Source of the DNA: Bacteroidales bacterium
GTDB taxonomy: Bacteria > Bacteroidota > Bacteroidia > Bacteroidales > P3
Reading direction: 5' to 3'
Assembly: GCA_017477025.1 (NCBI GenBank)
Contig: JAFUYA010000044.1
Span: 1-52,725 of the forward strand
Length of the DNA: 52,725 bases
In this document: piece after piece, positions 27,177 to 47,833 of the stretch
How the letters are laid out: each line of letters starts with the position of its first letter
Numbering within the stretch: position 1 is the first letter of the stretch
Position numbers and translations under genes: made by a program
The notes under the pieces: generated by a model
Seen by the model: only the letters and a program-made list of their open reading frames with translations
Told to the model about the DNA's origin: nothing
Database searches by the model: none

Positions 27177-30100
27177 ATGAAAATGCGAATCGGTTTTTTA
27201 CTTGCGGCAATCCTCCTTCTGTCTGCAAGAAGTTTTTCTCAAAACATGGATGTAGGAGCAGACGGGAAACTTATCCTCCCGTATGAAACCAACTTCGATG
27301 ATGCCACAGATATAAACATGTGGACTATTCACACTTCTTATACGGATAAGAATTTGACGAAACCGTCCACTTATCCTACAAACATATATACATCCGGTGC
27401 TGAATATAAACACAATGGTTCCGCCGGCGCACTGAGATTTACATATTACGGCAGTGGTTATGCTGTAATGCCTGCAATTTCAAATGATACAGACATAAAG
27501 AAGCTCCGCCTGTCATTTTATGCCTATCCGAGAGGAGTGTCAAATATCAGTCAGGTAGGTACATTTGAAATAGGATTAATGACCAATCCGAATGATATCA
27601 GTACTTTTACATCTATCTATACTGTCACTCCTACGGCCAATAAAACTTGGCAACTTGAAACAGTAACATTCGAAAATGTAGACGCAACAAAAGGGAAACA
27701 TATCGCCTTCAAAAGAACACAGGCAGAAAATCTCGGAGGCACTTCCTATGGTTGGTCTATTGATGATCTTTTATTAGAAGAGATTGCCGATTGCGAAGCT
27801 ATAGACAAAAATTCTTTGGTCATCAGCAATATTGAGAACACTTCTGCTGTTGTATCTTTTACAGATTCGCACTCAAATTCCTCATGGAATATTTACTACA
27901 GAAAGAAAGGCTATGATGGACAATGGGATAAATATGCTACAACAACAAAGACAACTTCTTTACCAAACCTTGAAGCAGCAACAGCATACGAGTTATATGT
28001 TGCTGCTGATTGCGGAGCAAAAGGAGAATCCGCTCCATCTTCTGTTGTTACATTCTTTACCAAAGCATACAATAATAACGTAAGCGGTGAATTCATTTTT
28101 GACTTGTCAGATACGGACAATATTGAAGATCATTGGTTATCTGTTTCTACATCTGCCAATAAATGGATTATAGGGTCTCAGGTAGACGGAGCGGACAATG
28201 CTTTGTACATTTCCAATGACGGCAGTCAGAATCTATATTCTGACGTTATAACGCAAGCCTATGCTTCCATTCCTTTAACATTTGACGATAAAAGTGTTTC
28301 TTCCATTTCTTTCGACTACAAGGTAAACGGAGCATCTATTTCTGCATACACATCTTTCTCTGCTTTTGTTATTGACGGCGGGAAGGCTTTACCTGAAAGC
28401 GGCATTCCTTTGGAAGCAGACATCATTGTCAATAAAGTTTCCCAAGTTACTGATTGGACTACCGCAACCTTTGCAACAGACAAGTATTCCGGTACATCAA
28501 AACAGTTGGTTTTCTACTGGGAAGTTGCAAGTACTAACTCTGCATATCATGAAGACCCTCCTGCTGCAGTCAGAGATATAATCATTCGTACCTCAAATTG
28601 TAGCATACCTGCAAATATTGCAAAAGTATCTTCCACGCAAACATCGGCAACAATTAAATGGGATCAGGAAGGAACGGTGGATTCTTGGAAAATATTCTAT
28701 AAAGAAAAGGAGGCTGCTGAAGATCAATGGACATATACGGAAATTGAAGGTTCATCGGAAAAGCAATATACGATAAACGGATTGTATGCCGATGAATTCT
28801 ATTATGTTTATGTTACAGCCGTATGCGAAGGTCAGGATGTCGGCTCCACGCAAAGAATACTTATTCATACGGATTGCAGTACAATAAGTGAATTGGAATG
28901 GAATGACGACTTTGATAATTTTGATGATTTTACTTGTTGGAAAGTTGTAACGAACGATTTCGAATATCCGAAAGTAACATCGGATAACAACATTGCCTAT
29001 TCGGGCAGTAATTTCGCTGAATTCGCAAACAACAACGGTCTTATTGTTTCTCCTGCTATCGGCGAAAATATAGAAAAGTTACGTTTCTCCGCAATGTTTC
29101 GCAGTACTTCATTATCATCGGAGGCAACCGTAGAAATCGGAGTAATGAGCAACACAAACGATGCTTCATCTTTTTCTGCAATAGGTACGGTTCCAAATCC
29201 CGACAATACGGAATGGTTCAGATATTCCGTAGATTTTGAACAATCAGAAATAAAAGGAGCAAATAATTACATTGCAATCAGATATTCCTCAAATAACACC
29301 GATATTAAATGGTATATGGATGATGTTACTATCGGATATGGTGTTAGCGACTGCAGAGCCCCGGAATTTAATTCGTTGGTTGCAACGAATCCTACACAGA
29401 CAACCGTTAATATAGCCTTTACGGATAATGATGAAACGCACAATGCATGGAAATTCTATTACAAGAATATTAATGCCAATGCAAAAATGCCATGGAACAG
29501 TTTCAATCTATCTTCACAAAGTGCTACCGTTACAGGATTATCGGCTCTGACAACATACGAAGCATACGTTTCAACTATTTGCGAAGGTACTGAAGTAGAA
29601 GATTCTACAAAACATATATTCTTTACAACAACTTGTGGCAAATTGACTGAAAGCGGTTTCCCTTACAGAAATGATTTCTCTGACACTCTGAATAAAGTAG
29701 GTCCTGATTGTTGGCAAATAGTACAATTACCACATTATGCAGACCAAGACGGTTCTGACGGAGAAATATACCCTTCCTATGGATATAGAGATGATTTCAG
29801 AGAAGAGGCATTAATGTTTTTCCGTGGCAATTGCGGTATTGTAACTCCGCAATTAGGAGTTGATATAAGAAAGGTTGAATTGTCATTCGACTACTGGGAA
29901 AATGCCGTTTATTGGAATAAATTAGGGGGCGAATTAAAAATAGGAACAATGTCCGACCCTAATAATATGGATACTTGGGAGGAAATAACTTCTATTACAG
30001 ACATTCAATTCACGGCACAAAAGGCATACGTTAGTTTTGCAGACGCATTAGAAAATATCGGCACTGACAACTATATCGCTTTCAGATTCTATCCTGATAA

Positions 30101-33100
30101 AGACATCAATGCCGGTGATTATCGTTATCACGGATGGTATATTGACAATGTTGAAATTTCAGTTGTTGGAGATTGTGCTTCTCCTGTAAAAAACAGCGTA
30201 AAAGTAACAAATATTACGGAAGTTTCTGCTGAAGTTTCTTTTAGTGATAATAATGAGAATCACGATAAGTGGATGGTTTACTATCAACAGGAAGGCTCAA
30301 AGGAGGTTGATAGCATAGAAACAAGTTCAACACAAATTACACTCACTAAATTAATTCCTTCTACATCCTATACAGTATGGGTACGTACATTATGTGAATC
30401 GGAAGGAGAAGAAATAACAGGTACTGATAGTACATCCGCACACGTATTCTTTACAAGAGGCTTTGCCGTTACCCCTGATGTAACAATAAACTTTGAAGAT
30501 GCTTCTGCATCTCAATATATTGCAACATCTTCCAATTGCATCAATAAGTGGATTATTTCGTCTGCAGTAGCGAATAAACAGACAGGAGAAAGTACTGCAA
30601 ATTCCTTGTATATATCTAATGACGGCAATTCTCACTCTGCAACAAAATCAACATCCGAAAATGACGGTTGGTATGCTTACGCTATAATCAATATTGACTT
30701 CGGTTCTGCTTCTGAATACAATCTTTCTTTTGATTATCAATGCGAAGGACAACTGAAAAGAGGTGTGTTGTATGCATATCTGCTTGATAAAGATACAGAA
30801 ATTCCTTTTGCCGGACTACCTGATATTACGAACGGAATGGATTTATTGGGTACTGCAGGTTATAACAGACCTAATTGGGTAAAATATTCAAACAAGATAA
30901 GCGGAGTCAAGAATTCTTCTAAACAGCTCGTGTTTGTTTGGTTTAACGACGGTAATTTCACAGAAAATTCTAAACCGGCTGCAATTGACAACATTTCAAT
31001 CACAGCTGTTCCGTGCAGTGCTCCTGTTATTAAGATTAAATCTATCGAACCTGAACAAGCAACATTCTACTGGGAAGATAACGGAGGTGACTTTTGGACA
31101 GCAAGTTATGTGAAAACCGGAGAAAGCGACTATACTGTTCAAACTGTAAATGATACTTTTGTAACAATTACAAACTTGGAAAAGAACACCTCTTATAAAA
31201 TAGTGGTTGCATCAGACTGCGGAGAAAACGGAAAACAAACATCCGTTGCCGTTGAATTTACTACACCTAAATCTATTGCTGTTGTAGGAAAAGACGGATA
31301 CTTTAATGACCTTGAAGATAGTGAAAAGAATGACGTATTCTCTTACAAGTCCAACAACTACGAACAAGAATATCACAATGCATGGACTATAGGTAAGGCT
31401 GCACATGAATATTTGGGGCAGGACGGACATGCTCTGTATATATCCAAAGACAAAAATCAATATGAATACGAATATACTACCACAAGTGCATGCTTTGCAA
31501 CATTTCCTGTCAAATTTGGAGAGTTTGAAGAATATCAACTGCAGTTTGATTATATGTTCCCTGGCGGAGGAGGAAACACCAACACTAAACTTGAGGTATA
31601 TGTTATGCCTTCCGATTTTAAAATGCCTGCGAGTCTGACTGATGGTCACGAACTATCTACATTCAAATACGATGATGCACGTCTAACGGTCATCAACAGC
31701 GGAACGGAGTGGACTGAATTTTTCTCAGGACCTATCAAAAATGTTCAAAATGAAACCCGTCAAATTGTATTCTATTGGTATAACTACGGAATTAAGAATT
31801 CTACAGAATATAATTTTAATCCTCCTATTGCTATTGACAATATAAGAATTGTAGGAAGCAATTGTCCTCAGAATATTAACTTGACTGTAAGTGATATCAA
31901 AGACGAAAATGTCAAATTATCTTGGCAATCAAACAATGATGTCAATGCATGGGATATTACTTACACAGAAGCAAGTAGCAAAACTAAATTTACAAAATCC
32001 ATTACTCGTGAAGAGGTTACCGTTGAGAAGAATAAAAACGCTGATACTGTACATACTTATGTATTGTATAACAACCTTCTTGCAGGACATAGATATAGCA
32101 TACAAATAACGAGTAAATGTGATGATAACACATTATCCAATCCTTCTAATTTGGTTAAATTCTCCACTTTAGGCAAAACGGTGAAGACATTCCCGTTCGA
32201 GCAAACCTTTGAAGATGCGGAAAAGAATAATACATTTTCTTTCTCCGGTGTTGGAAACAATCAGTGGTATATAGGAGAAGCCGTTGGAGTTAATGACGGA
32301 TTAGGTGAAGGACAGAGCCATTCCATGTATATTTCTTCAGACCAGGGAGAAACGCAATCTTACAACCCGCATTCTTCTTCATACGCATACGCTGCAATGA
32401 ATATCCTGTTTGGTGAAAAGTCTGAATATAACATTGAATTCGATTATTTCGTAGGAGGTAGGGAAAGTGCAGACAACTTCAATGTATTTTTAATCCCGAT
32501 TGATCAGGAAATTCCTGTAAAGGGCTACATAAATGCAAATGATACCATGATTCTTTACTCCTATGGCGTAAATTCATTTAAACATGTATCATTCAAATTA
32601 GATACCGTACAAGGTAAGCATTACCAATTGGTATTTATGTGGAAAAATACAAGTGTTGCAGCTTCTTTACCGGCTCCTGCAGTTGATAATATACGTATTA
32701 CCGAATCGGATTGTTGGTCTGTCAACAATTTGAGAAGTGAAGGTCGGAAACAAACTACATCCATTGCTTTAAAATGGGAAAATAATTCTGAGGCTGATCC
32801 GCAGTATTACACAGTATATTATCGTCCGAGATCTGAATACTCTTTACCATGGGAAAGCACGACTACCGAACAAACAAGTATTGTTTTGGAGAATTTGGCT
32901 CCCGGTACAAATTATTCAATCAAGGTTACAGCAAATTGTTCTGATAAAGATGAATCAGTTATCACATATATGGAAGAAAGCACTATATGCGATCCTGTTC
33001 CTGACGGAGAGTTCTGGAGCGAATCTTTTGAATTGAATGAATATGTGGAGAACCGCTCTATGCCTTTATGCTGGATCAGACTGAAAGCAGAACCTGCTTT

Positions 33101-35924
33101 AGACGGTCTTACAAAAAGATACATATATTTCCCGAGTGTTGTTACTTACGGTAATGAGGGATACAATGAAGGAGCAGCTGCTTTGGAATTCAGAGGCGGT
33201 GAACAAGTGATAGCCACAAGGAGTTTTGCTTCAAAGATAGAAAACACAACACTTACATTCTATGCAAAAACAAACTATACCGGACAGTCTTCTGCCGGAT
33301 TGTTCGGAAACAATGATTATGCTTTCGGAGGTACTCTAAATATATACATTGCTTCTGATATTTACGACACACTTACCTGGGAGCTTGCTCATACTATGAG
33401 AGCCTCGGATCTTAAACCGGAATATGATGAATTCAGGATTCCTTTCCAGAACGTAGTAAACAGAGGTCGTAACAAATCTATTGTTTTCTCTTATGCGGAT
33501 ACGACTGTTTATTCTCTGTATATTGATGACATAAGATTGGAGTCTGCTCCTGACGATGATATCATTGATGCATGTGATAATACTCTTACAATCAGTGTAA
33601 AGAATGCCGTAGCAATTGACGGAATTCTTACTACACCTGAAACGGAGTCTGCAACTATAGAATGGACAACTACAGGTTTGGAGACTCATTGGGATTATGC
33701 CTTAGGTTTGAATACAATGGTTACAACAACCAATCAAAGTGTTGCTTTCTCCAACTTAATACCCGGTCAGGAATATACAGTCTCCGTACGTTTGCATTGC
33801 GTGGATGAGGACGGAAAAGAGACAGGAGAAGTTTCTCCTTGGAAAGATATTACTTTCAAAACTTCCGGTTCTACTCCTCAATGCGATCCTGTAACTTCTT
33901 TAGAAGTTGTTTCCGTAACCGAAAATACCGTAAAAGTTTCATGGGAAGGCGATGTTTCCGACGGGACTAACTACGAAGTAGCTATAGCTAAGGATAAAAA
34001 TTCCGATGAGTTACTTTCTTCCGAAATAAAGACAGTATCGGTTAATGAAGCTTCTTTCAACGGACTGACAGACGGAACAACATACAAAGTATTTGTTCGC
34101 AAAGTTTGTCAATTTAACTCCTCAGAATGGACGGAACTGGAAGTAACCACAGTAATGGCATGGAAGAAACCTGTTGTAACGACAAAGACTGCAACTTCCA
34201 TAACGGCAATTTCTGCAAAATTGAACGGCACGGTTACTGCCTATACGGAAACAATTCAAGAAAGAGGATTTGAAGTAAGGTTGTCCAAAGAAGATATAAC
34301 CAAAGCCGTTAAATATCAGTCAACTTCCAATGAATCATCTTTCTCCTATATAATTGATAACTTAGATCCTCAAACTGAATACAGCTACAGGGCTTATGTT
34401 ATATCAATAAAAGATACGCAATACAGCGGAGCATGGGAAAAATTTAAGACATTGGAATGGAATCCGACAAAACCTACAGTAACAACATATCCTGTAGATA
34501 TAACTACATTAGATTCCGTTTCCGTTACTCTGAAAGGTAAGGTTATTGAAGGTGAAGAGAACATTACGAAGAAAGGATTCATATACAAATCTGCATCGTT
34601 GGGTGATGTAGAAATAGATATGACTTCTGCAGGGGAAGATTTCTCGTATAACCTTACTGGTCTGCAATACGAAACAAGATACACATTCTATGCATTTGCA
34701 GAAACGGATACTTACAAAGGAGCAACAATGATCAAAGGCGAAGAAGAAGCTTTCACCACATTGAGCGGTCCGATTACTCCTGCAGAAGTAGTAACGTTGG
34801 ATGCTGAAAATATTGAGTATGATAAAGCAACCTTAAAAGGAAGCGTTACTAAAGGAAGTGAAGATATTACGGAAAGAGGATTTAAGTATGTTACAAAAGG
34901 CAACTACGACACAGTGACGGTTAAAGTCAATACTTCCGACGATGACCTGACATCAGTTATAACAAATCTTAATGCATCAACAGAGTATATTTATTACGCG
35001 TATGTTAAAACGGCAAAGAACCTGTACAGAGGAGAAGACGTTACGTTTACAACGGCAAATCCTCCTGCAGTAAATCCTACGGTAACGACACAAGATGCTG
35101 AAAACATTACGTACAATTCCGCTTCTTTACGCGGAACAGTACAAGAAGGTAATGTTGAGATTACAGAATATGGATTTGCATACAAAGTTGCCGATACCGA
35201 AACATTTACGTTTGTTGATGCTAACGTATCGGGTAAAAACATGGTTGCATCAGCTATTAATCTATCCGCAAATACAGAATACGTCTATTATGCATTTGTA
35301 AAAACAGCAACGGAAACAATCAGCGGAGAAACTCTTTCTTTCACAACAAAAGAAGCTCCGGTAAAGGTTGATCCTGAAATAACCTTGAATGATGCAAGTG
35401 CGGATATTACAACTGCAACATTAAGTGCTGTAATTGTAAAAGGAAGTGAAGATATAATCAAATCAGGTTTCAGATACAGAATGGCAGAGGAAGATACTTG
35501 GAGTGATGATATTGAGGCTTCTATAGGTGGAAACGGACTGATGACTTGTGAAATCAATGGTTTAGTCCCTGAAACTAAGTATGAATTTACAGCATTTGTT
35601 ACAACTGAAAGCGGAGAATTCGTATGTAAGGAGAACAAACTATTTACAACTAAACCTGCAAGTCTATCCGATGCTGAATCCGCTTTGATGATTGCGGTAT
35701 ATCCTAACCCTGTTACGGACAAAGTTACAATAGATATGGACGGTTCTGCTAACGACGTAAGAATCATGATAACGGATGTAAGCGGAAAAGTGATTTTCAA
35801 AGACAACTCGTTCAAGGATATGCACAATATAACAATTAACACAAGAAACTTTGTTGCAGGAGTCTATTATTTGACGGTAACTACCGATAAAGCAACGACA
35901 ACCAAGAAATTGATTAAACAATAA
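27177..35924 (+). CDS. Giant T9SS-exported modular adhesin (2915 aa)
   Basis: A very large secreted protein. The signal peptide is residues 1-21. About eight modules follow, each a jelly-roll 'choice-of-anchor J' or cleaved-adhesin-like domain (for example NFDDATDINMW, NDDFDNFDDFTCW, RNDFSDTLNKVGPDCW), most with DNI or DDI motifs, plus a Cys-started fibronectin type III-like domain. A ninth fibronectin domain (CDPVTSLEV) leads into five tandem ~97-residue repeats at about 2332-2828. The last ~75 residues (AVYPNPVTDKV to KKLIKQ) are a type A T9SS C-terminal domain. No catalytic domain is apparent. The likely role is attachment to host glycans, matrix or other cells. The open frame is unbroken over 8.7 kb. 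Confidence 0.9.
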   Translation: MKMRIGFLLAAILLLSARSFSQNMDVGADGKLILPYETNFDDATDINMWTIHTSYTDKNLTKPSTYPTNIYTSGAEYKHNGSAGALRFTYYGSGYAVMPAISNDTDIKKLRLSFYAYPRGVSNISQVGTFEIGLMTNPNDISTFTSIYTVTPTANKTWQLETVTFENVDATKGKHIAFKRTQAENLGGTSYGWSIDDLLLEEIADCEAIDKNSLVISNIENTSAVVSFTDSHSNSSWNIYYRKKGYDGQWDKYATTTKTTSLPNLEAATAYELYVAADCGAKGESAPSSVVTFFTKAYNNNVSGEFIFDLSDTDNIEDHWLSVSTSANKWIIGSQVDGADNALYISNDGSQNLYSDVITQAYASIPLTFDDKSVSSISFDYKVNGASISAYTSFSAFVIDGGKALPESGIPLEADIIVNKVSQVTDWTTATFATDKYSGTSKQLVFYWEVASTNSAYHEDPPAAVRDIIIRTSNCSIPANIAKVSSTQTSATIKWDQEGTVDSWKIFYKEKEAAEDQWTYTEIEGSSEKQYTINGLYADEFYYVYVTAVCEGQDVGSTQRILIHTDCSTISELEWNDDFDNFDDFTCWKVVTNDFEYPKVTSDNNIAYSGSNFAEFANNNGLIVSPAIGENIEKLRFSAMFRSTSLSSEATVEIGVMSNTNDASSFSAIGTVPNPDNTEWFRYSVDFEQSEIKGANNYIAIRYSSNNTDIKWYMDDVTIGYGVSDCRAPEFNSLVATNPTQTTVNIAFTDNDETHNAWKFYYKNINANAKMPWNSFNLSSQSATVTGLSALTTYEAYVSTICEGTEVEDSTKHIFFTTTCGKLTESGFPYRNDFSDTLNKVGPDCWQIVQLPHYADQDGSDGEIYPSYGYRDDFREEALMFFRGNCGIVTPQLGVDIRKVELSFDYWENAVYWNKLGGELKIGTMSDPNNMDTWEEITSITDIQFTAQKAYVSFADALENIGTDNYIAFRFYPDKDINAGDYRYHGWYIDNVEISVVGDCASPVKNSVKVTNITEVSAEVSFSDNNENHDKWMVYYQQEGSKEVDSIETSSTQITLTKLIPSTSYTVWVRTLCESEGEEITGTDSTSAHVFFTRGFAVTPDVTINFEDASASQYIATSSNCINKWIISSAVANKQTGESTANSLYISNDGNSHSATKSTSENDGWYAYAIINIDFGSASEYNLSFDYQCEGQLKRGVLYAYLLDKDTEIPFAGLPDITNGMDLLGTAGYNRPNWVKYSNKISGVKNSSKQLVFVWFNDGNFTENSKPAAIDNISITAVPCSAPVIKIKSIEPEQATFYWEDNGGDFWTASYVKTGESDYTVQTVNDTFVTITNLEKNTSYKIVVASDCGENGKQTSVAVEFTTPKSIAVVGKDGYFNDLEDSEKNDVFSYKSNNYEQEYHNAWTIGKAAHEYLGQDGHALYISKDKNQYEYEYTTTSACFATFPVKFGEFEEYQLQFDYMFPGGGGNTNTKLEVYVMPSDFKMPASLTDGHELSTFKYDDARLTVINSGTEWTEFFSGPIKNVQNETRQIVFYWYNYGIKNSTEYNFNPPIAIDNIRIVGSNCPQNINLTVSDIKDENVKLSWQSNNDVNAWDITYTEASSKTKFTKSITREEVTVEKNKNADTVHTYVLYNNLLAGHRYSIQITSKCDDNTLSNPSNLVKFSTLGKTVKTFPFEQTFEDAEKNNTFSFSGVGNNQWYIGEAVGVNDGLGEGQSHSMYISSDQGETQSYNPHSSSYAYAAMNILFGEKSEYNIEFDYFVGGRESADNFNVFLIPIDQEIPVKGYINANDTMILYSYGVNSFKHVSFKLDTVQGKHYQLVFMWKNTSVAASLPAPAVDNIRITESDCWSVNNLRSEGRKQTTSIALKWENNSEADPQYYTVYYRPRSEYSLPWESTTTEQTSIVLENLAPGTNYSIKVTANCSDKDESVITYMEESTICDPVPDGEFWSESFELNEYVENRSMPLCWIRLKAEPALDGLTKRYIYFPSVVTYGNEGYNEGAAALEFRGGEQVIATRSFASKIENTTLTFYAKTNYTGQSSAGLFGNNDYAFGGTLNIYIASDIYDTLTWELAHTMRASDLKPEYDEFRIPFQNVVNRGRNKSIVFSYADTTVYSLYIDDIRLESAPDDDIIDACDNTLTISVKNAVAIDGILTTPETESATIEWTTTGLETHWDYALGLNTMVTTTNQSVAFSNLIPGQEYTVSVRLHCVDEDGKETGEVSPWKDITFKTSGSTPQCDPVTSLEVVSVTENTVKVSWEGDVSDGTNYEVAIAKDKNSDELLSSEIKTVSVNEASFNGLTDGTTYKVFVRKVCQFNSSEWTELEVTTVMAWKKPVVTTKTATSITAISAKLNGTVTAYTETIQERGFEVRLSKEDITKAVKYQSTSNESSFSYIIDNLDPQTEYSYRAYVISIKDTQYSGAWEKFKTLEWNPTKPTVTTYPVDITTLDSVSVTLKGKVIEGEENITKKGFIYKSASLGDVEIDMTSAGEDFSYNLTGLQYETRYTFYAFAETDTYKGATMIKGEEEAFTTLSGPITPAEVVTLDAENIEYDKATLKGSVTKGSEDITERGFKYVTKGNYDTVTVKVNTSDDDLTSVITNLNASTEYIYYAYVKTAKNLYRGEDVTFTTANPPAVNPTVTTQDAENITYNSASLRGTVQEGNVEITEYGFAYKVADTETFTFVDANVSGKNMVASAINLSANTEYVYYAFVKTATETISGETLSFTTKEAPVKVDPEITLNDASADITTATLSAVIVKGSEDIIKSGFRYRMAEEDTWSDDIEASIGGNGLMTCEINGLVPETKYEFTAFVTTESGEFVCKENKLFTTKPASLSDAESALMIAVYPNPVTDKVTIDMDGSANDVRIMITDVSGKVIFKDNSFKDMHNITINTRNFVAGVYYLTVTTDKATTTKKLIKQ
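34170..35660 (+). repeat. Five tandem ~97-residue protein repeats in the adhesin
   Basis: Units begin near 34170, 34470, 34786, 35077 and 35371. Each has the pattern P-x-V-T-T, then a segment like ATLKGSV, ITERGFKY, LNASTEYIYYAYVKT and FTT. Units 3 and 4 are closest (both contain DAENI). The nucleotide sequences have diverged enough that assembly collapse is unlikely. Confidence 0.85.
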
Positions 35925-36193: not shown

Positions 36194-37198
36194 ATGAATA
36201 TTATAATTCCTATGGCCGGTATGGGCAAGAGACTTCGCCCGCACACTCTTACAACGGCAAAACCTTTAATCAAAGTCTGCGGACAAGAAATTGTTAAAAT
36301 TCTCTGCAATGAGATTGTCAAAACTTGCAATTCCAAAGTTGATAATATAGGCTTTGTTGTCGGAAATTTCGGCAAACAAGTTGAGGATGATCTGATTCAA
36401 GTAGCACGGTCTTTAGGTGCTGAAGGCAGAATTTATCATCAGGACATTCCGTTAGGAACTGCGGATGCCATCTGGCAGGCAAGAGAAATTCTTCATGGAA
36501 ATACGGTCATTGCTTTTGCGGATACGCTTTTTGATGCATCTTTTACAATGGATTTAACACAAGAAGGTATCATTTGGACTTCGTATGTTGAAGATCCTTC
36601 CGCTTTCGGTGTTGTAAAAAAAGACGAACAGAGCGGGAAAATAACCGCTTTTGTTGAAAAACCGAAAGAATATGTAAGTAATGAGGCTATTATAGGTATA
36701 TATTATTTCCGTGAAGCAGAAAAGTTGTACAAAGAAATTAAGCGATTGATTGACGAAAGTATTATGCACTCGGGAGAGTATCAATTGACCGATTGTCTTG
36801 AAAATATGTTGCAACAAGGTTTCTCTTTTAAAACTGAAACCGTTAAGGAATGGTTGGACTGTGGAAATAAAAATGCCGTAGTCAATACCAATCAAAGACT
36901 ACTGTGTCTTGAAATGGGATTGGATAAAATTCACCGTAGCGTAAAAAGTAACAATTCCCGAATCATCGAGCCTTGCTATATAGGAGAAAATGTTGTAATT
37001 GACAATTCTGTAATAGGTCCTTATGTTTCATTGGAAGATAACACTATTGTAAGAAACTCGGTGATTAGAAATTCCATAATAGCACATGACTCAAAAGTAG
37101 AAAATGCCGTAATAGAAAACTCAATGATAGGAAACAATACCTTATACAAGAAAAATGCAGATGAGTTGTCTTTGGGGGCATTTACGGTAGTGGAATAA
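36194..37198 (+). CDS. Sugar-phosphate nucleotidyltransferase with left-handed beta-helix
   Basis: A 334-residue NTP-transferase-family protein. The N-terminal Rossmann-like domain has the nucleotide-binding signature MAGMGKRLRPHTLTTAKPL, the PLGTADAIW segment, FADTLFD as the metal-binding Asp region, and VEKPKEY for sugar-phosphate contacts. The C-terminal ~80 residues show hexapeptide repeats (IGENVVI, DNSVIGP, RNSVIRN, ENAVIEN) of a left-handed beta-helix. It should join a sugar 1-phosphate to an NMP; base and sugar are not readable. It is the first gene of an apparent operon with the cytidylyltransferase-kinase fusion (16-base gap) and a mutarotase. Confidence 0.85.
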   Translation: MNIIIPMAGMGKRLRPHTLTTAKPLIKVCGQEIVKILCNEIVKTCNSKVDNIGFVVGNFGKQVEDDLIQVARSLGAEGRIYHQDIPLGTADAIWQAREILHGNTVIAFADTLFDASFTMDLTQEGIIWTSYVEDPSAFGVVKKDEQSGKITAFVEKPKEYVSNEAIIGIYYFREAEKLYKEIKRLIDESIMHSGEYQLTDCLENMLQQGFSFKTETVKEWLDCGNKNAVVNTNQRLLCLEMGLDKIHRSVKSNNSRIIEPCYIGENVVIDNSVIGPYVSLEDNTIVRNSVIRNSIIAHDSKVENAVIENSMIGNNTLYKKNADELSLGAFTVVE

Positions 37199-37214
37199 AA
37201 CAGTCAATAAAATT

Positions 37215-38369
37215 ATGCCAAAAAAGGTATTTGTTTCGGGATGCTATGACATGCTGCACAGCGGTCATGTAGCATTTTTTAAAGCCGCTTCCGCATACGG
37301 AGATCTTTATGTCGGAATCGGAAGCGATAAAACAATCTTGGAATTAAAAAAAAGAAGAACCATTAATTCGGAGAAAGAACGTCTGTACATGGTAAAAGCA
37401 ATACGCTACGTAAAGGACGCATGTATAAACAGCGGAAGTGGAATGATGGATTTCATCGGTAGCATAGACAAGTTTTCTCCGGACATTTTCGTGGTAAATT
37501 CTGACGGAGCCACCAAAGAAAAAGAAGATTTCTGCAGACAACGCGGTATTGAGTATGTAGTTTTGGACAGAATACCCGAAAACGGCCTTCAAGCAAGGAG
37601 TACTACTTCTTTACGCTCCACTATCGGCTCACAAATTCCTTATAGGTTAGATTTAGCGGGTACATGGATTGATCAACCTTACGTATCCGAACACCATGAC
37701 GGATGGGCTTTAACAATTTCAATAGAACCTACACAAGAATTTGAGGAGAGAAGCGGAATGAGTACCTCAACTCGCAATGCAATAAAGAAATTATTCCCTC
37801 AACGTCTTCCCGATTATGATCCTGAATTATTGGCCAAACTGATTTTCTGTTTTGAAAATTTCCCTTCTCTGAACAACTATGTATCCGGAGCTCAGGATGC
37901 AATAGGTATCTGCATGCCTGGACTTGTCCGCCACCACTACAACGGCAACTACTGGCCGGACAAAACGGAAAGTTGCTTTGATGAAGAAATTTTATCATGG
38001 CTGGAAGATCATCTGTGTTTGATACATACATTCAATCGCCCGGATGATACACATGTTGATAAAGATACCCGTATAAACTCAGACACCGTAAAAAAACTGA
38101 CACTTGCAGCAGAAAACTGCTGGCAGGCAATAATGAACAGAGATCTGAATTCATTTGCTGCTTGTTTCAATGATTCTTTTAATGCACAGACTGAAATGTT
38201 TCCTCACATGCTTTCCCCGAAAATCAATGACTATATTGCAAAATATAAAGACAAGTGTCTTGCCCTGAAACTCAGTGGTGCAGGCGGAGGCGGTTATTTA
38301 ATACTTGTCGTGGAGAAACCTTTACCAGATAGTATCAAAATAAGAATAAGACGTAAAGACAGTTTGTAA
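37215..38369 (+). CDS. Fusion of HxGH cytidylyltransferase domain and GHMP sugar kinase
   Basis: A 384-residue bifunctional protein. Residues 1 to about 136 form a cytidylyltransferase-like domain with GCYDMLHSGH (His15, His18) and the C-terminal RSTTSLR motif (128-134), equivalent to the ISTT(x)IR signature of TagD and HldE-C. Residues from about 140 form a compact GHMP kinase: motif 1 PYRLDLAGTWIDQP (142-155), motif 2 SGMSTSTRN (180-188), the Gln-Asp motif SGAQDAIG (224-231, compare GWQD in HddA-like kinases) and motif 3 SGAGGGGYL (354-362). Both active sites look intact. It should phosphorylate a sugar at C1 and nucleotidylate it. Fucose is suggested only by neighbours; heptose or another sugar is possible. 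Confidence 0.85.
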   Translation: MPKKVFVSGCYDMLHSGHVAFFKAASAYGDLYVGIGSDKTILELKKRRTINSEKERLYMVKAIRYVKDACINSGSGMMDFIGSIDKFSPDIFVVNSDGATKEKEDFCRQRGIEYVVLDRIPENGLQARSTTSLRSTIGSQIPYRLDLAGTWIDQPYVSEHHDGWALTISIEPTQEFEERSGMSTSTRNAIKKLFPQRLPDYDPELLAKLIFCFENFPSLNNYVSGAQDAIGICMPGLVRHHYNGNYWPDKTESCFDEEILSWLEDHLCLIHTFNRPDDTHVDKDTRINSDTVKKLTLAAENCWQAIMNRDLNSFAACFNDSFNAQTEMFPHMLSPKINDYIAKYKDKCLALKLSGAGGGGYLILVVEKPLPDSIKIRIRRKDSL

Positions 38370-38391
38370 TTTATCAATACCGAAAAGTATT

Positions 38392-38721
38392 ATGAAACGT
38401 TATTGCAGAACATTGGAATTAAGAAACGATAAAGATATGATTGCGGATTATATAGAACTGCATTCACACGTTTGGCCCGAAGTAAAGGAGGGAATCAAAA
38501 GCGTAGGTATTTTGGATATGCAGATTTATATAAAAGACAACGAAATCTTTATGATAATGGATACGGTAGATAGTTTCGATTTTGACAGGGATATGGAACT
38601 TTTGTCCCGACTTCCCCGCCAAAAAGAATGGGAAGCCTGTGTTTCCGTAGTACAAGGTGTTGAACCTGATACACCTGCTACAGAAAAATGGAAACTAATG
38701 GAAAAGATTTTCCAACTGTAA
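38392..38721 (+). CDS. L-rhamnose/L-fucose mutarotase family protein (COG3254)
   Basis: A 109-residue protein of the RhaM-like family, which interconverts alpha and beta anomers of 6-deoxyhexoses. Family-typical features are RYCRTLELRND near the N-terminus, YIELHSHVWPEV with the conserved His residues, and IFMIMDTVD. Members of this COG are associated with L-rhamnose or L-fucose catabolism. It lies 22 bases after the kinase fusion, so it probably supplies the kinase with the correct anomer. Repeat copy C4 follows 104 bases after the stop. Confidence 0.85.
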   Translation: MKRYCRTLELRNDKDMIADYIELHSHVWPEVKEGIKSVGILDMQIYIKDNEIFMIMDTVDSFDFDRDMELLSRLPRQKEWEACVSVVQGVEPDTPATEKWKLMEKIFQL

Positions 38722-39139: not shown

Positions 39140-40393
39140 ATGAAAAAACATAGTTATGCATTCAGTCTTACCATCATCGGTATTCTGTATTTTACTTTCG
39201 GATTCATTACTTGGTTGAACAACCAATTGATACCATTCCTTAAAACAGCTTGTCAGTTGTCTGATACTCAAGCTTATTTGGTTACATTCGCCTTTTACAT
39301 ATCCTATTTTGTGATGGCACTGCCTTCTGCGGGCATCTTAAAAAAGACAGGTTTTGCAAAAGGAATGTCTTTAGGTTTATTAGTGATGGCTTTGGGCTGT
39401 GTGATATTCATTCCTGCCGCAATGAGCAGAAACTATCTTGTATTTCTGATAGGCTTATTTGTACAGGGAACAGGATTGGCACTATTACAAACGGCAGCCA
39501 ACCCGTATGTTACAATATTAGGACCTATCGAATCGGCAACCCAACGAATGTGCATAATGGGATTATTTAACAAAATAGCAGGAATTGTAGGTATATACAT
39601 TTTCTCAAAAGCACTGTTGAGTAATTTTGACATCGTTTCACACAATATAGAAAATGCCGTTGGCGATACACAGATCATGCTACTCAATGACCTGGCACAC
39701 AGAATTATATTACCGTATATTATCATGGCATGCGGATTGGTATTGATAGCGTTAATGGTCTATTTGGCAAAATTACCCGATATCAACTCAACTGATGACA
39801 ATGATATATCAACGAAAGATAACGGCAAGACAAAATTACCTGCATACTTGTGGTTAGGTGTATTGGCATTATTCTTCTATGAAGGAGCAGAGGTAATGGC
39901 AATAGATACCCTTGTGCCTTACAGCAAGAGTATAGGTTTGCCGGACACCGTATATTCAAAAATAGGAATGTTTGCCCTGGCAGCACTATTAGTCGGCTAT
40001 ATTTCAACAATCATTTTGATACCTAAATATTTAAGTCAAACTAAAGCATTAATTTACTGCAATATATTGTCATTAATATTTGTTGTTATTGCTCTTTTGA
40101 CAAGCGGTGTAACATCTTTAGTTTTCCTTATCTTACTTTCATTCTCTAATTCCGTAATGTGGGGAGCAATTTGGGCATTGGCTATTGACAAATTGGGTAA
40201 AAATACATCCTTTGCTTCAGCTCTGTTGATTATGGCAATTGTCGGCGGTGCTTTAATCCCGCTTCTTTACGGCGGTTTGTCCGATGCCTTAAATAATACT
40301 CACATTCCTTATTTGCTGTTCTTACCTTGCTATGCGTTTATCTTATGGTATGCAGTCAAAGGACATAAAATCGGATTGCCGAAATCCAAATAA
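39140..40393 (+). CDS. FucP-type sugar:proton symporter (MFS)
   Basis: A 417-residue major-facilitator transporter with about 12 membrane helices. Motifs of the FucP/glucose-galactose transporter family are FGFITWLNNQLIPFLK in helix 1, LQTAANPYVTILGP in the first half, and MGLFNKIAG. The family imports L-fucose, galactose, glucose or GlcNAc with protons. The nearby fucosidase and mutarotase favour L-fucose, but sequence alone does not fix the substrate. clpX begins 16 bases after the stop, so the two are probably co-transcribed. Confidence 0.88.
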   Translation: MKKHSYAFSLTIIGILYFTFGFITWLNNQLIPFLKTACQLSDTQAYLVTFAFYISYFVMALPSAGILKKTGFAKGMSLGLLVMALGCVIFIPAAMSRNYLVFLIGLFVQGTGLALLQTAANPYVTILGPIESATQRMCIMGLFNKIAGIVGIYIFSKALLSNFDIVSHNIENAVGDTQIMLLNDLAHRIILPYIIMACGLVLIALMVYLAKLPDINSTDDNDISTKDNGKTKLPAYLWLGVLALFFYEGAEVMAIDTLVPYSKSIGLPDTVYSKIGMFALAALLVGYISTIILIPKYLSQTKALIYCNILSLIFVVIALLTSGVTSLVFLILLSFSNSVMWGAIWALAIDKLGKNTSFASALLIMAIVGGALIPLLYGGLSDALNNTHIPYLLFLPCYAFILWYAVKGHKIGLPKSK

Positions 40394-43426: not shown

Positions 43427-45151
43427 ATGAAAAAGTCTGTAAAAATACTGCTGTTTTTAACTATTGTTTCAATAAACAATCTTTCGTATTCCCAACAATC
43501 GGAGAATTTTCCGTCGTGGTTTGACAGTGTAAAATTGGGAATAATGATTCACTACGGATTGTATTCAGTCCCTTCCTATTCTGATAAGGAGCAATATGCA
43601 GAATGGTTTTACAAAGGATTGATTTCGGGAGATTCTTTGAGAATAAATTTTCAGAAACATACTTACGGAGAGAATTTTTCTTACTTTGATTACATGCACC
43701 TTTTCAAATCAGAGTTGTTTGATGCGGATTCATGGCTTTCTTTATTCAAAAAATCAGGTGCAAAATATATCGTTTTCAGTTCAAAGCATCATGACGGTTT
43801 CTGTTTGTGGGATACCAAGACAACGAATAAGAATTCCATGCATACCCCTGCCGGCAGGGATTTTTTGAAAGAATTGAAACAGGCATGCACATTGCATGAC
43901 ATTCGTTTCGGTGTGTATTATTCACTTATGGAATGGGACAATCCGTATTTTCGATGGACAATTGATTCTGAAGGATTGGATGATTACGTGGATAAATACA
44001 TGCTTGTACAGTTTAAAGAGTTAGTTGATTTGTATCAACCGTCCATTGTCTTCGCTGACGGCGATTGGGACTTTGATTACAAGGCTCTTCGCAGCAGTGA
44101 AATGATTGACTATTTGGAAAAGAAGGTCGGGCGAAATGAAGTTATAGTGAATAATCGCTGGGGTATCGGAAATCCGTACGGTTTTTTGACTCCCGAGTAT
44201 TCTGACGGCATAAAAGAGAAAAATCGTCCGTGGAGTGAGTGCAGAAGTTTAGGAAGAAGTTTCGGTTTGAACAGAAATTCTTCACTGGAAGATTATCTGT
44301 CTGCAGAAGAACTCATAAAACATTTTATTAAACTCGTAAGTCTTGGCGGCGGGCTGATGCTTAATGTTGCTCCTGCCGCTGACGGTCAAATTCCTTTGTT
44401 ACAACAGGAACGATTGTTGCAATTAGGCGAATGGATTGACATAAACAAACAAGCCGTATACGGCTCTAAGCCGTGGTACAAATCCATTGACATGACTCCG
44501 AAAACTGAATATATATACAGTCCCTTTATTGACTTTGATTGGGTCAGAAATTCTCCTGTCAAACATTGCACGGAGGATAATTTTTCCATAGATTGGGAAA
44601 ACGAATACACTCCTCAAAAAAATGAAACATTGACTTTCATTCTCAATGCCGATGACGAAGCGGAAATTTCCATATTTGAAAGTAAAAAACTGAAATACAA
44701 CGGCAAAGCCGTTAAGGATAAGGAGTTAGAATTCAGTTTTGACTTTCAGAAGAGTAAAGTCTATACATTCGTTATCAATTATAAAGAAAAAGATGTTGAT
44801 GCTCACCTGCACTTTATGATTAAAGACAAAAAAGGTAACACTTCTGCATTCACTACGAATAAACAATGGAAAGGAAATCTTTCATGGCAACAACCTGTTG
44901 TCTGCTACACGACTAACGGAAACAACCTTTATGCAATCTGTTTGGAAGAATTGTCAGACAATTTCTCATTTCCGTTGGAAAAAGAACCTCAACGAAACAT
45001 GAATATTACTCTTTTGGGAAGTGATGTCAGAAACTTACCTTGGCAATATCACAATGGAATACTGACAATTGACTTATCACATCTGACTTTAAAGGATGTA
45101 AAATGCAAGTATGCTTGTGTATTCAGGTTGGAGAACTATTTGAAAGAATAA
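43427..45151 (+). CDS. GH29 alpha-L-fucosidase
   Basis: A secreted glycoside hydrolase of 574 residues that removes terminal L-fucose. The signal peptide is residues 1-22. The (beta/alpha)8 catalytic domain covers about 28-345, with family motifs LGIMIHYGLYSVPSY, EWFYKGL, YIVFSSKHHDGFCLWD and FGVYYSLMEWDNP. The predicted nucleophile is Asp211 in VFADGDWDF, and NNRWG and LGGGLMLNVAPAADG are also conserved. A beta-sandwich domain fills the C-terminus. No T9SS sorting domain and no lipobox are present, so it is probably periplasmic. It lies in the same neighbourhood as the FucP-type permease and the mutarotase. The acid/base Glu was not identified with confidence. Confidence 0.92.
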   Translation: MKKSVKILLFLTIVSINNLSYSQQSENFPSWFDSVKLGIMIHYGLYSVPSYSDKEQYAEWFYKGLISGDSLRINFQKHTYGENFSYFDYMHLFKSELFDADSWLSLFKKSGAKYIVFSSKHHDGFCLWDTKTTNKNSMHTPAGRDFLKELKQACTLHDIRFGVYYSLMEWDNPYFRWTIDSEGLDDYVDKYMLVQFKELVDLYQPSIVFADGDWDFDYKALRSSEMIDYLEKKVGRNEVIVNNRWGIGNPYGFLTPEYSDGIKEKNRPWSECRSLGRSFGLNRNSSLEDYLSAEELIKHFIKLVSLGGGLMLNVAPAADGQIPLLQQERLLQLGEWIDINKQAVYGSKPWYKSIDMTPKTEYIYSPFIDFDWVRNSPVKHCTEDNFSIDWENEYTPQKNETLTFILNADDEAEISIFESKKLKYNGKAVKDKELEFSFDFQKSKVYTFVINYKEKDVDAHLHFMIKDKKGNTSAFTTNKQWKGNLSWQQPVVCYTTNGNNLYAICLEELSDNFSFPLEKEPQRNMNITLLGSDVRNLPWQYHNGILTIDLSHLTLKDVKCKYACVFRLENYLKE

Positions 45152-45664: not shown

Positions 45665-47833
45665 ATGTTAGCTACAATATTAGCGACAGTCGCTGTGTCG
45701 TTAAGTTTGTATGGTGCAATGCCGTTACAGGACAGAGTTGTGCCGTGTGAAGCGGATACGTTTTTTGTAGTAGATACCGTCTCAAAATATGACAGCATTG
45801 TTTTACTGGATGATGTGAAGATATCAGGACACTCTGAAAAAGATTTCCAAATGACATCATCACAGAACAAAGTGCAAGTTAATAGAGAGTATCTCGAAGA
45901 CAACTTCACAGGTTCCTTATCTCAGACTTTGGAAATCGTACCCGGAGTGAAGGCTATCAGTATCGGCTCTTCCCAATCCAAACCCACGATAAGAGGTATG
46001 GGGTTTAACCGAATGGCAGTTGCAGAAAACGGCATCAAACACTCTTCTCAACAGTGGGGAGATGATCACGGCTTGGAGATTAATCAGTTTGAAGTGGATA
46101 AAGTCGAAATAATAAAAGGACCTTCGGCACTTCAATTCGGCAGTGATGCTATAGGCGGAGTAATGAACTTATTTACCAATTATGCTCCGTTGAAAGATTT
46201 TGAAGGTTCTTTTCTTTTGACAGGCAGAAGCAATAATCAGCATTTGGGATTGTCTGCCAAGATCGGCGGCAGGAGTAATAAGTTGTTCTACAAGGCAGGA
46301 ATCTCCGTTGCCGATTATGCCGATTATAAAGTTACTGCAGACAGTATCCAGTACTATTCTTATTGGATAAAACTTAAGGATAAACGTCTGCGAAACACGG
46401 CAGGAAAAGAATATGACGCTGATATTATGTTAGGTTATATCGGGAAAAGGTTTCATACTGACATAAAAATAAGCGATAACTTTTCCAAAAGCGGATTTTT
46501 TGCGGATGCTCACGGCTTGGAGGTAAGACTTTCTAACATTGATTATGACAAAAGTAAGAGAGACATCTGTCTTCCTTATCAACAAGTCAATCATTTGAAG
46601 ATTCTTTCCCATAGTGTTCTGTCTGTGGACAAAATTAATCTGGAAGCTAACGTTGCTTATCAAAATAATTTACGTGAAGAACACTCCGAACCTATATCTC
46701 ACGGCTATATGCCTACTCCCGACAACACGAAAGAAAGAATGTTCAACAAGAATACCTATACCGCTAACATAGGTCTGTCTGCTTTCATTAGTGAAAACAA
46801 TACACTGCAAGGTGGAATTAATACTGAATTGCAGAAAAATGACATTGACGGATGGGGATTCATTATTCCGACTTTCAGCACATTATCTCTTGGCGGATAT
46901 TTATTTGATAAACACACGATAAAGGAAAACTTTATTATCAACGGCGGAATACGTTATGATTATGCTTCAACTCACATACACGGTTATAGTGATTGGTACA
47001 AAACACCCGTCGGTTGGAATGACAGTGTGTATAAGCAAAGAAGTGAGGATATAAAAAGGAATTTCAACTCCTTGACATATTCTTTCGGACTGGATTATAA
47101 TATAGATGAATGGATATTTAAGGTCAATATGGGCAAAAGTTTCCGCATTCCGATTGCAAAAGAATTGGGTGCCGATGGAATCAATTATCATATTTTCAGA
47201 TATGAGAAGGGTAATTCCTCTCTTGACGCAGAACAATCTTATCAATTGGATGCCGGAATAAAATACACCGATAGCAGAATTGCATTTCAGGCAGACCCGT
47301 ATGTTAATTACTTTCCTAACTATATATATCTTAATCCTACCGCTGCTTATACGGAGGGGTTGCAAACTTATTATTACACACAAGCCGAAGTTTTCAGATA
47401 CGGATTTGAACTGCAAGTCTCATATTTGATAACTTCGTATCTGCAAGCAGAATTCCAAACGGAATATTTGTCAAGTAAGCAACTCTCAGGTCCTAAAAAA
47501 GGCTATTCCTTACCATTCTCCGTACCTTGGAGTATGGATTGCGGTCTGAGATATACATTTGACAAAAACAAAAGCGGATTCATTGCAATAAACATTCATG
47601 TTGTAGGGGATCAGAACGAAATAGTCCCGCCTGAAAAAACCACTGAAGGCTATTGGATTCTGAATATGCAGGCTTCAAAACGCTTTAGAATCGGGAAAAA
47701 TGATATGAAAGTAGCTTTGCAGATAAAAAACATTTTAGACAAACGTTACTTTGACCATACGAGTTATTACCGCTTAATTGATGTTCCTGAACCTTCAAGG
47801 AATATATCATTAAGTATAGGTTATAATTTTTAA
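45665..47833 (+). CDS. TonB-dependent receptor, ZnuD-like
   Basis: A 722-residue outer-membrane receptor. The signal peptide (about 1-18) is followed by a TonB-box-like segment (IVLLDDVKISG) and a plug domain (TLEIVPGVKAI, IRGMGFNRM, VEIIKGPSALQFGSDAIGG). A 22-stranded barrel follows, ending in an aromatic-rich LSIGYNF. In the plug, GIKHSSQQWGDDHGLEI places an Asp-Asp-His where ZnuD-type zinc receptors carry His/Asp ligands. There is no N-terminal carboxypeptidase-like domain and no SusD partner, so a metal or small chelate is more likely than a glycan. It sits between a Cys/His-rich protein and two DUF4625 lipoproteins, in an apparent operon. Confidence 0.85.
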   Translation: MLATILATVAVSLSLYGAMPLQDRVVPCEADTFFVVDTVSKYDSIVLLDDVKISGHSEKDFQMTSSQNKVQVNREYLEDNFTGSLSQTLEIVPGVKAISIGSSQSKPTIRGMGFNRMAVAENGIKHSSQQWGDDHGLEINQFEVDKVEIIKGPSALQFGSDAIGGVMNLFTNYAPLKDFEGSFLLTGRSNNQHLGLSAKIGGRSNKLFYKAGISVADYADYKVTADSIQYYSYWIKLKDKRLRNTAGKEYDADIMLGYIGKRFHTDIKISDNFSKSGFFADAHGLEVRLSNIDYDKSKRDICLPYQQVNHLKILSHSVLSVDKINLEANVAYQNNLREEHSEPISHGYMPTPDNTKERMFNKNTYTANIGLSAFISENNTLQGGINTELQKNDIDGWGFIIPTFSTLSLGGYLFDKHTIKENFIINGGIRYDYASTHIHGYSDWYKTPVGWNDSVYKQRSEDIKRNFNSLTYSFGLDYNIDEWIFKVNMGKSFRIPIAKELGADGINYHIFRYEKGNSSLDAEQSYQLDAGIKYTDSRIAFQADPYVNYFPNYIYLNPTAAYTEGLQTYYYTQAEVFRYGFELQVSYLITSYLQAEFQTEYLSSKQLSGPKKGYSLPFSVPWSMDCGLRYTFDKNKSGFIAINIHVVGDQNEIVPPEKTTEGYWILNMQASKRFRIGKNDMKVALQIKNILDKRYFDHTSYYRLIDVPEPSRNISLSIGYNF

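Follow-up and report, generated by a model that had tools for sequence, protein, structure and literature searches.

A compact nucleotidyltransferase-GHMP kinase fusion of Bacteroidales as a probable non-homologous replacement of Fkp in L-fucose salvage

Introduction

Which sugar is activated by a protein that joins an HxGH nucleotidyltransferase to a compact GHMP kinase, and do the genes on either side of it belong to the same pathway? The question is raised by contig JAFUYA010000044.1 of a Bacteroidales bacterium (assembly GCA_017477025.1), the whole 52,725 nucleotides of which are referred to here as the window. Three intact plus-strand open reading frames (ORFs), separated by gaps of 16 and 22 bp, encode a nucleoside triphosphate (NTP) transferase, the 384-residue fusion and a sugar mutarotase (Table 1). 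The original prediction, made from the DNA alone, placed these ORFs and their domains correctly and read them as an undescribed sugar-activation operon, possibly for a CDP-linked deoxysugar or heptose. Our analysis upholds the fusion as a putative sugar-activating enzyme, but not the NTP transferase as part of a conserved unit. We consider it probable that the fusion is a non-homologous replacement of Fkp, the bifunctional enzyme of L-fucose salvage. In gut Bacteroides, such salvage allows capsules and glycoproteins to be decorated with scavenged fucose, as reported in PMC8931616.

Domain architecture and conservation of the fusion

The N-terminal half carries the HxGH motif and the S/T-rich signature of its superfamily, and its Pfam match to PF01467 lies well above the cut-off (1.1e-11, 45.4 bits versus 21). 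Among the NCBIfam models matching this half, only the general domain model TIGR00125 was above cut-off. In the C-terminal half, PF08544 (GHMP C-terminal) fell just below its cut-off (8.4e-4, 20.1 bits versus 21), whilst PF00288 (GHMP N-terminal) went unmatched (E<=0.1), consistent with the missing kinase segment described below. An AlphaFold2 model (mean predicted local distance difference test score 91, predicted template modelling score 0.68) contains a low-confidence linker at residues 121-140. Structural matches of residues 1-138 were cytidylyltransferases, including glycerol-3-phosphate cytidylyltransferase, HldC and relatives; those of residues 139-384 were GHMP kinases, the best being the heptose kinase WcbL. 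The kinase half shows the GHMP fold, a phosphate loop and the C-terminal Gly-rich motif, with a strand at 163-170 followed by a loop and a helix at 184-193.

Of 8000 protein candidates scored, restricted to 0.55-1.75 times the query length, the best 120 were examined and all were 378-402 aa. Source names, where given, point to Bacteroidales and label these proteins 'adenylyltransferase/cytidyltransferase family protein' or 'cytidyltransferase-like protein'. In species-representative genomes, 390 loci encoding relatives of the fusion were found. Since 120 homologues of near-constant length and 390 genomic loci exist, a frameshift or assembly artefact can be ruled out as the source of the fusion. 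Three contigs amid the Bacteroidota-labelled matches bear the labels Lachnoclostridium, Lachnospiraceae and Eggerthellaceae (L045, L058 and L079, respectively) and are probably mis-binned metagenome contigs.

In an even sample of the order, 67 of 392 Bacteroidales genomes contained a match to the family (E<=1e-30), of which 59 were of the compact type, mutarotase-bearing forms counted in, the remaining 8 having a diverged form some 449 residues long. At the level of the phylum, matches at E<=1e-25 were found in 5 of 392 genomes, one of them matching partially and one being the source genome itself. Across 47 diverse relatives, the motifs named for both halves in the original prediction vary little or not at all: H15 and H18 of HxGH and R128-S129-T130-T131 in the nucleotidyltransferase half, and G181-T184-S185, G225-Q227-D228 and G355-A356-G357-G359-G360 in the kinase half. 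K45 and R119 of the nucleotidyltransferase half are conserved too. The diverged relatives (L131-L137) have 444-467 residues, are about 30% identical to the fusion and share its short kinase spacing. A paralogue of 375-378 residues, about 40% identical, differs in its motifs, with C for D146 and SGSGGG or TGSGGG for GAGGGG. Its neighbours include an L-arabinose isomerase gene, nearby in L191; in L193 it adjoins genes for FucP, a mutarotase and a ManC-like protein, and in L195 one for a mutarotase. It may serve another sugar.

The fusion is recurrently found among fucose genes

Neighbourhoods were compared in 78 loci, comprising the window and the best 80 of the 390 loci after removal of three with no usable fusion ORF (L037, L056, L098). 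Within 5 kb, gmd was found in 23 loci, fcl in 23 and either of them in 27; a FucP-like permease occurred in 25, a mutarotase in 8 and a GH29 alpha-L-fucosidase in 1. In total 48 loci had a fucose-related gene and 30 had none. The window is scored in these counts through its mutarotase and a major facilitator superfamily (MFS) gene distinct from true FucP; FucP-like permeases were present in 24 of the other 77 loci. A further 26 loci, hand-picked from the order and phylum samples and possibly overlapping the first set in species, gave gmd or fcl in 12, any fucose-related gene in 18 and none in 8. In seven loci of the diverged relatives, which served as a control, fucose genes were absent within 5 kb.

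These assignments were checked against curated models. The fucP equivalog was matched at E<=1e-90 by 29 of 32 FucP-like neighbours, and representatives scored 408.8 and 508.8 bits for FucP (cut-off 280.4) and 578 for Gmd (cut-off 415), with Fcl slightly short (495.2 versus 500). Moreover, Gmd was present in 57 of the 67 fusion genomes versus 185 of the other 325. Two same-genus relatives of the source genome show the order gmd-fcl-fusion-FucP (L024) and gmd-fcl-fusion-mutarotase (L025).

In four loci from two genera (L138, L139, L140, L143), an N-terminal PF05336 mutarotase is fused to the protein itself, giving versions of 592-595 residues in the first three and one cut by the contig end in L143. 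Three of these loci have a GH29 gene on the same strand, at a distance of 72 bp (L139), 1.7 kb (L140) or about 3 kb (L138); in L140 a FucP-like gene, at 370 bp, stands between the fusion and GH29. GH29 and fusion genes overlap by 4 bp in L199, at the start of the latter. The three complete mutarotase-bearing versions contain about 110 residues without a Pfam match between the mutarotase and nucleotidyltransferase domains.

Fkp and the fusion occur in separate genomes of the sample

Fkp of B. fragilis (PDB 5yys, 9iip, 9iit) likewise unites nucleotidyltransferase and GHMP sugar kinase in one polypeptide. Its nucleotidyltransferase is, however, of the PF07959 type and the chain has about 950 residues, as against PF01467 and 384 residues here, in keeping with the earlier expectation of Fkp-like logic with a different fold and far shorter chain. 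At E<=0.1 the fusion showed no PF07959 domain. The Fkp equivalog NF009948 scored only 33.2 bits on the fusion versus a cut-off of 721, with the best stretch confined to residues 300-369. Membership of Fkp is therefore rejected, the modelled adenine contacts of Fkp also being absent (see below).

Among the 392 Bacteroidales genomes, the fusion (67) and Fkp (28) never co-occurred, against 4.8 co-occurrences expected (hypergeometric P = 0.004, uncorrected for kinship). The same held for the compact type alone (59 genomes; P = 0.009, likewise uncorrected). Six taxonomic families hold both proteins, always in separate genomes. Fkp was found in 2 of 61 relatives of the source genome, neither with the fusion and both already in the 392-genome sample, and PF07959 was not found in the source genome at E<=1e-3.

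Some genomes place Fkp in the operon slot of the fusion, with gmd, fcl, mutarotase and FucP. Examples among the Fkp loci retrieved from 20 of the 28 genomes are gmd-fcl-Fkp-mutarotase-FucP (L156), mutarotase-Fkp-FucP (L158) and FucP beside Fkp (L160, L161). Overall, these loci contained gmd and fcl in 2, FucP in 6, a mutarotase in 3 and none of these in 13.

The kinase half retains most of the fucose site of Fkp

The kinase half was aligned to Fkp with MAFFT, bridged by the 449-residue relatives, under chosen gap settings (--op 2.0, --ep 0.0) on which the register depends; HHalign gives a different register around the phosphate loop. The MAFFT register is supported by the bridging relatives, since these have the short spacing together with a more canonical loop, GSGLSTST. 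Of 12 mapped fucose-binding and catalytic positions of Fkp, nine are identical and invariant in the fusion, the others being T602 to Q154, G717 to S183 and S720 to T186. Fkp W599, which stacks on C4-C6 of fucose, has W151 as its counterpart. W151, E214, R144, the phosphate-loop S185 and the catalytic aspartate D228 show no variation in any of the 47 relatives.

What differs is the stretch between the first motif and the phosphate loop, which is 86 residues shorter than in Fkp. From the first-motif P to the phosphate-loop G there are 39 residues in 47/47 relatives, versus 125 in the Fkp of L159 (P590-G715). Four modelled adenine contacts of Fkp (D644, M645, P666, I669) all sit within this alignment gap, and a fifth, L722, corresponds to N188. 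As judged by alignment, the fusion thus keeps the sugar site, catalytic aspartate and phosphate loop and lacks the nucleoside wall, whose place may be taken by a further subunit, by the nucleotidyltransferase domain or by nothing. Beside the loop, all 47 relatives have R179 and R187, and arginine is absent from both places in all 20 Fkp loops read.

Proposed function and alternatives

Taken together, L-fucose as the sugar of the fusion is well supported by gene context and active site. GDP-L-fucose is a likelier product than the CDP-deoxysugar or heptose first suggested, given that gmd, fcl, FucP, mutarotase and alpha-L-fucosidase recur around the fusion. We infer the order of reactions and, from gene context, GDP as the carrier, GTP over CTP or ATP. 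L-fucose released by alpha-L-fucosidases would be imported by FucP, and the mutarotase would provide the anomer used by the kinase half. This half would phosphorylate the sugar at C1, the nucleotidyltransferase half would convert fucose-1-phosphate to GDP-L-fucose, and the product would enter the pool made de novo by Gmd and Fcl. The fusion, whilst not an Fkp by its defining domain, is thus likely to work like one. Replacement of Fkp is the most economical account, as it combines the same sugar, the same slot in some genomes and the same two steps with a different nucleotidyltransferase and a trimmed kinase.

Other known systems fit less well. HldE also fuses a sugar kinase to an HxGH nucleotidyltransferase. 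The HldE kinase is PfkB-type, unlike the GHMP kinase here. The fusion has no PfkB match in Pfam and scores far below the HldE cut-offs (TIGR02199, 52.3 versus 181.5 for the nucleotidyltransferase half; NF008454, 36.7 versus 521), so membership is rejected. HddA and WcbL are heptose-7-phosphate kinases that yield the 1-phosphate. Their solved chains, some 345 residues long, comprise a kinase but no nucleotidyltransferase, no heptose gene was seen among the annotated fusion neighbours, and the HddA model rejects the fusion (NF049969, 16.6 versus 600). TagD (1coz) and HldC (5xf2) resemble the N-terminal half in fold and HxGH signature, but are free-standing enzymes with other acceptors (TIGR01518 on the fusion, 39.7 versus 165.4).

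That the fusion instead activates another sugar, such as D-arabinose, L-galactose or a 6-deoxyheptose, by way of the fucose transport and mutarotase machinery, yielding a capsule or O-antigen sugar linked to GDP or CDP, is unlikely. WcbL as best structural match and the resemblance of the nucleotidyltransferase half to heptose adenylyltransferase and glycerol-3-phosphate cytidylyltransferase models, albeit below cut-offs, would suit such a role, and Fkp itself is reported to accept D-arabinose (PMC12732313). Against this stand the GDP-fucose and fucose-uptake genes among the recurrent neighbours and the invariance of W151. Moreover, no heptose-pathway isomerase occurs in the 18 annotated neighbour clusters of 31 listed, rarer neighbours having been left unannotated.

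Two further readings turn on the kinase half. It is distinctly unlikely, though consistent with the missing nucleoside-binding lobe, that this half uses pyrophosphate or another phosphate donor without a base. R179 and R187 would then grip the donor, and pyrophosphate freed by the nucleotidyltransferase would feed the kinase, for a net reaction of L-fucose + GTP to GDP-L-fucose + phosphate. It is very unlikely that the kinase half is a degenerate module binding sugar-1-phosphate, with fucose-1-phosphate supplied by another enzyme and the fusion acting only as a pyrophosphorylase. The absence of the adenine-contact segment and of a PF00288 match would agree with this, yet invariance of D228, E214, R144 and S185 is unexpected in a dead kinase, and no Fkp was found in the source genome as a source of fucose-1-phosphate, other fucokinases not having been sought.

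If the fusion does replace Fkp, a second, structurally distinct enzyme would account for fucose salvage in species without Fkp, and genomes carrying a salvage enzyme would rise from 28 with Fkp to 87 of 392 with the 59 compact fusions. The protein would also be a 384-residue candidate catalyst for GDP-fucose synthesis and a natural experiment on the minimal content of a GHMP kinase. Searches of open-licence PubMed Central papers on the fusion, fucose salvage and pyrophosphate-dependent GHMP kinases found no description of it among the papers listed, in line with its having been called undescribed. The words cytidylyltransferase, GHMP and nucleotidyltransferase are absent from the main text of a 2025 paper on Fkp evolution.

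The upstream NTP transferase is an incidental neighbour

The presence of two nucleotidyltransferases had been taken as a clue to the pathway. However, the NTP transferase lies outside any conserved unit with the fusion and mutarotase. Any match to it near the fusion was found in 7 of 93 loci, the window counted, and most matches were weak. Among the relatives scanned, nine carry it without a strong fusion match (G002, G003, G005, G007, G009, G012, G013, G022, G024), and seven carry the fusion without a match to it (G004, G008, G011, G014, G015, G037, G047; G008 and G047 are 69% and 61% complete). This mismatch in phyletic pattern led us to reject the three genes as a conserved operon. It is extremely improbable that the three form a dedicated operon with the NTP transferase as its true pyrophosphorylase and the fusion as an accessory kinase: tight spacing, a weak similarity to the beta-helix of PF07959 (fucose pyrophosphorylase; E = 0.093) and a copy on the strand opposite to the fusion, 3.7 kb away, in the same-genus L024 speak for it, whilst the separate occurrences in both directions and the usual position of the NTP transferase elsewhere, before an unrelated long ORF, speak against it.

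This long ORF follows the NTP transferase on the same strand in 10 of 11 loci (the window and L204-L213). It encodes 417-505 aa, mostly cut by the locus end, often has a lipoprotein-like start, and forms a separate conserved pair with the NTP transferase.

Other genes of the window and the source genome

Table 1. Features of the window and of related loci.
Feature	Position	Strand	Basis
Fusion protein, 384 aa	37215..38369	+	ORF; HxGH nucleotidyltransferase domain ~1-135 and compact GHMP kinase domain ~139-384
Nucleotidyltransferase half	37215..37619	+	GCYDMLHSGH (9-18), K45, N95, R119, RSTTSLR (128-134); conservation in 47 relatives
Compact GHMP kinase half	37629..38366	+	Alignment to Fkp kinase domains; conservation
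Kinase-half sites			R144, W151, D153, E214, Q227, D228 (sugar site); G181-R187 phosphate loop; GAGGGG 355-360; C-terminal R379-R380
Sugar mutarotase, 109 aa	38392..38721	+	PF05336 rhaM 1.5e-27; 22 bp downstream of fusion; labelled COG3254 in the original prediction
NTP_transferase/left-handed beta-helix protein, 334 aa	36194..37198	+	PF00483 4.6e-28, weak hexapeptide-repeat matches; 16 bp upstream of fusion
MFS sugar transporter	39140..40393	+	NagP/GluP-like; 220 bits versus FucP cut-off 280.4; beside clpX here and in L024
GH29 alpha-L-fucosidase	43427..45151	+	PF01120 3.8e-89; ~5 kb downstream, outside tight cluster
TonB-dependent receptor	45665-47833
2915-residue protein	27177-35924		Many repeated modules
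Mutarotase-bearing fusions	L138:7992-9773, L139:7989-9767, L140:4277-6064
Paralogues, 375-378 residues	L191:7998-9125, L193:7979-9115, L195:7995-9131

On the L-rhamnose mutarotase equivalog, the mutarotase of the window reaches 23.6, with the cut-off at 99.6. The MFS transporter was rejected as a FucP by its score and by its position beside clpX in L024 as well; in the window, the MFS/clpX pair is a neighbour separate from the NTP transferase. A true FucP is encoded on contig C118 of the source genome (574 bits), gmd-fcl on C141 and a fucose isomerase domain on C59, so that the pathway genes clustered in the two same-genus relatives are scattered here. Given this isomerase domain, imported L-fucose could also be catabolised.

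The GH29 alpha-L-fucosidase of the window is a possible source of free L-fucose. It is followed, after about 0.5 kb, by the TonB-dependent receptor gene. Upstream of the NTP transferase, the C-terminal end of the 2915-residue protein resembles a type IX secretion sorting domain.
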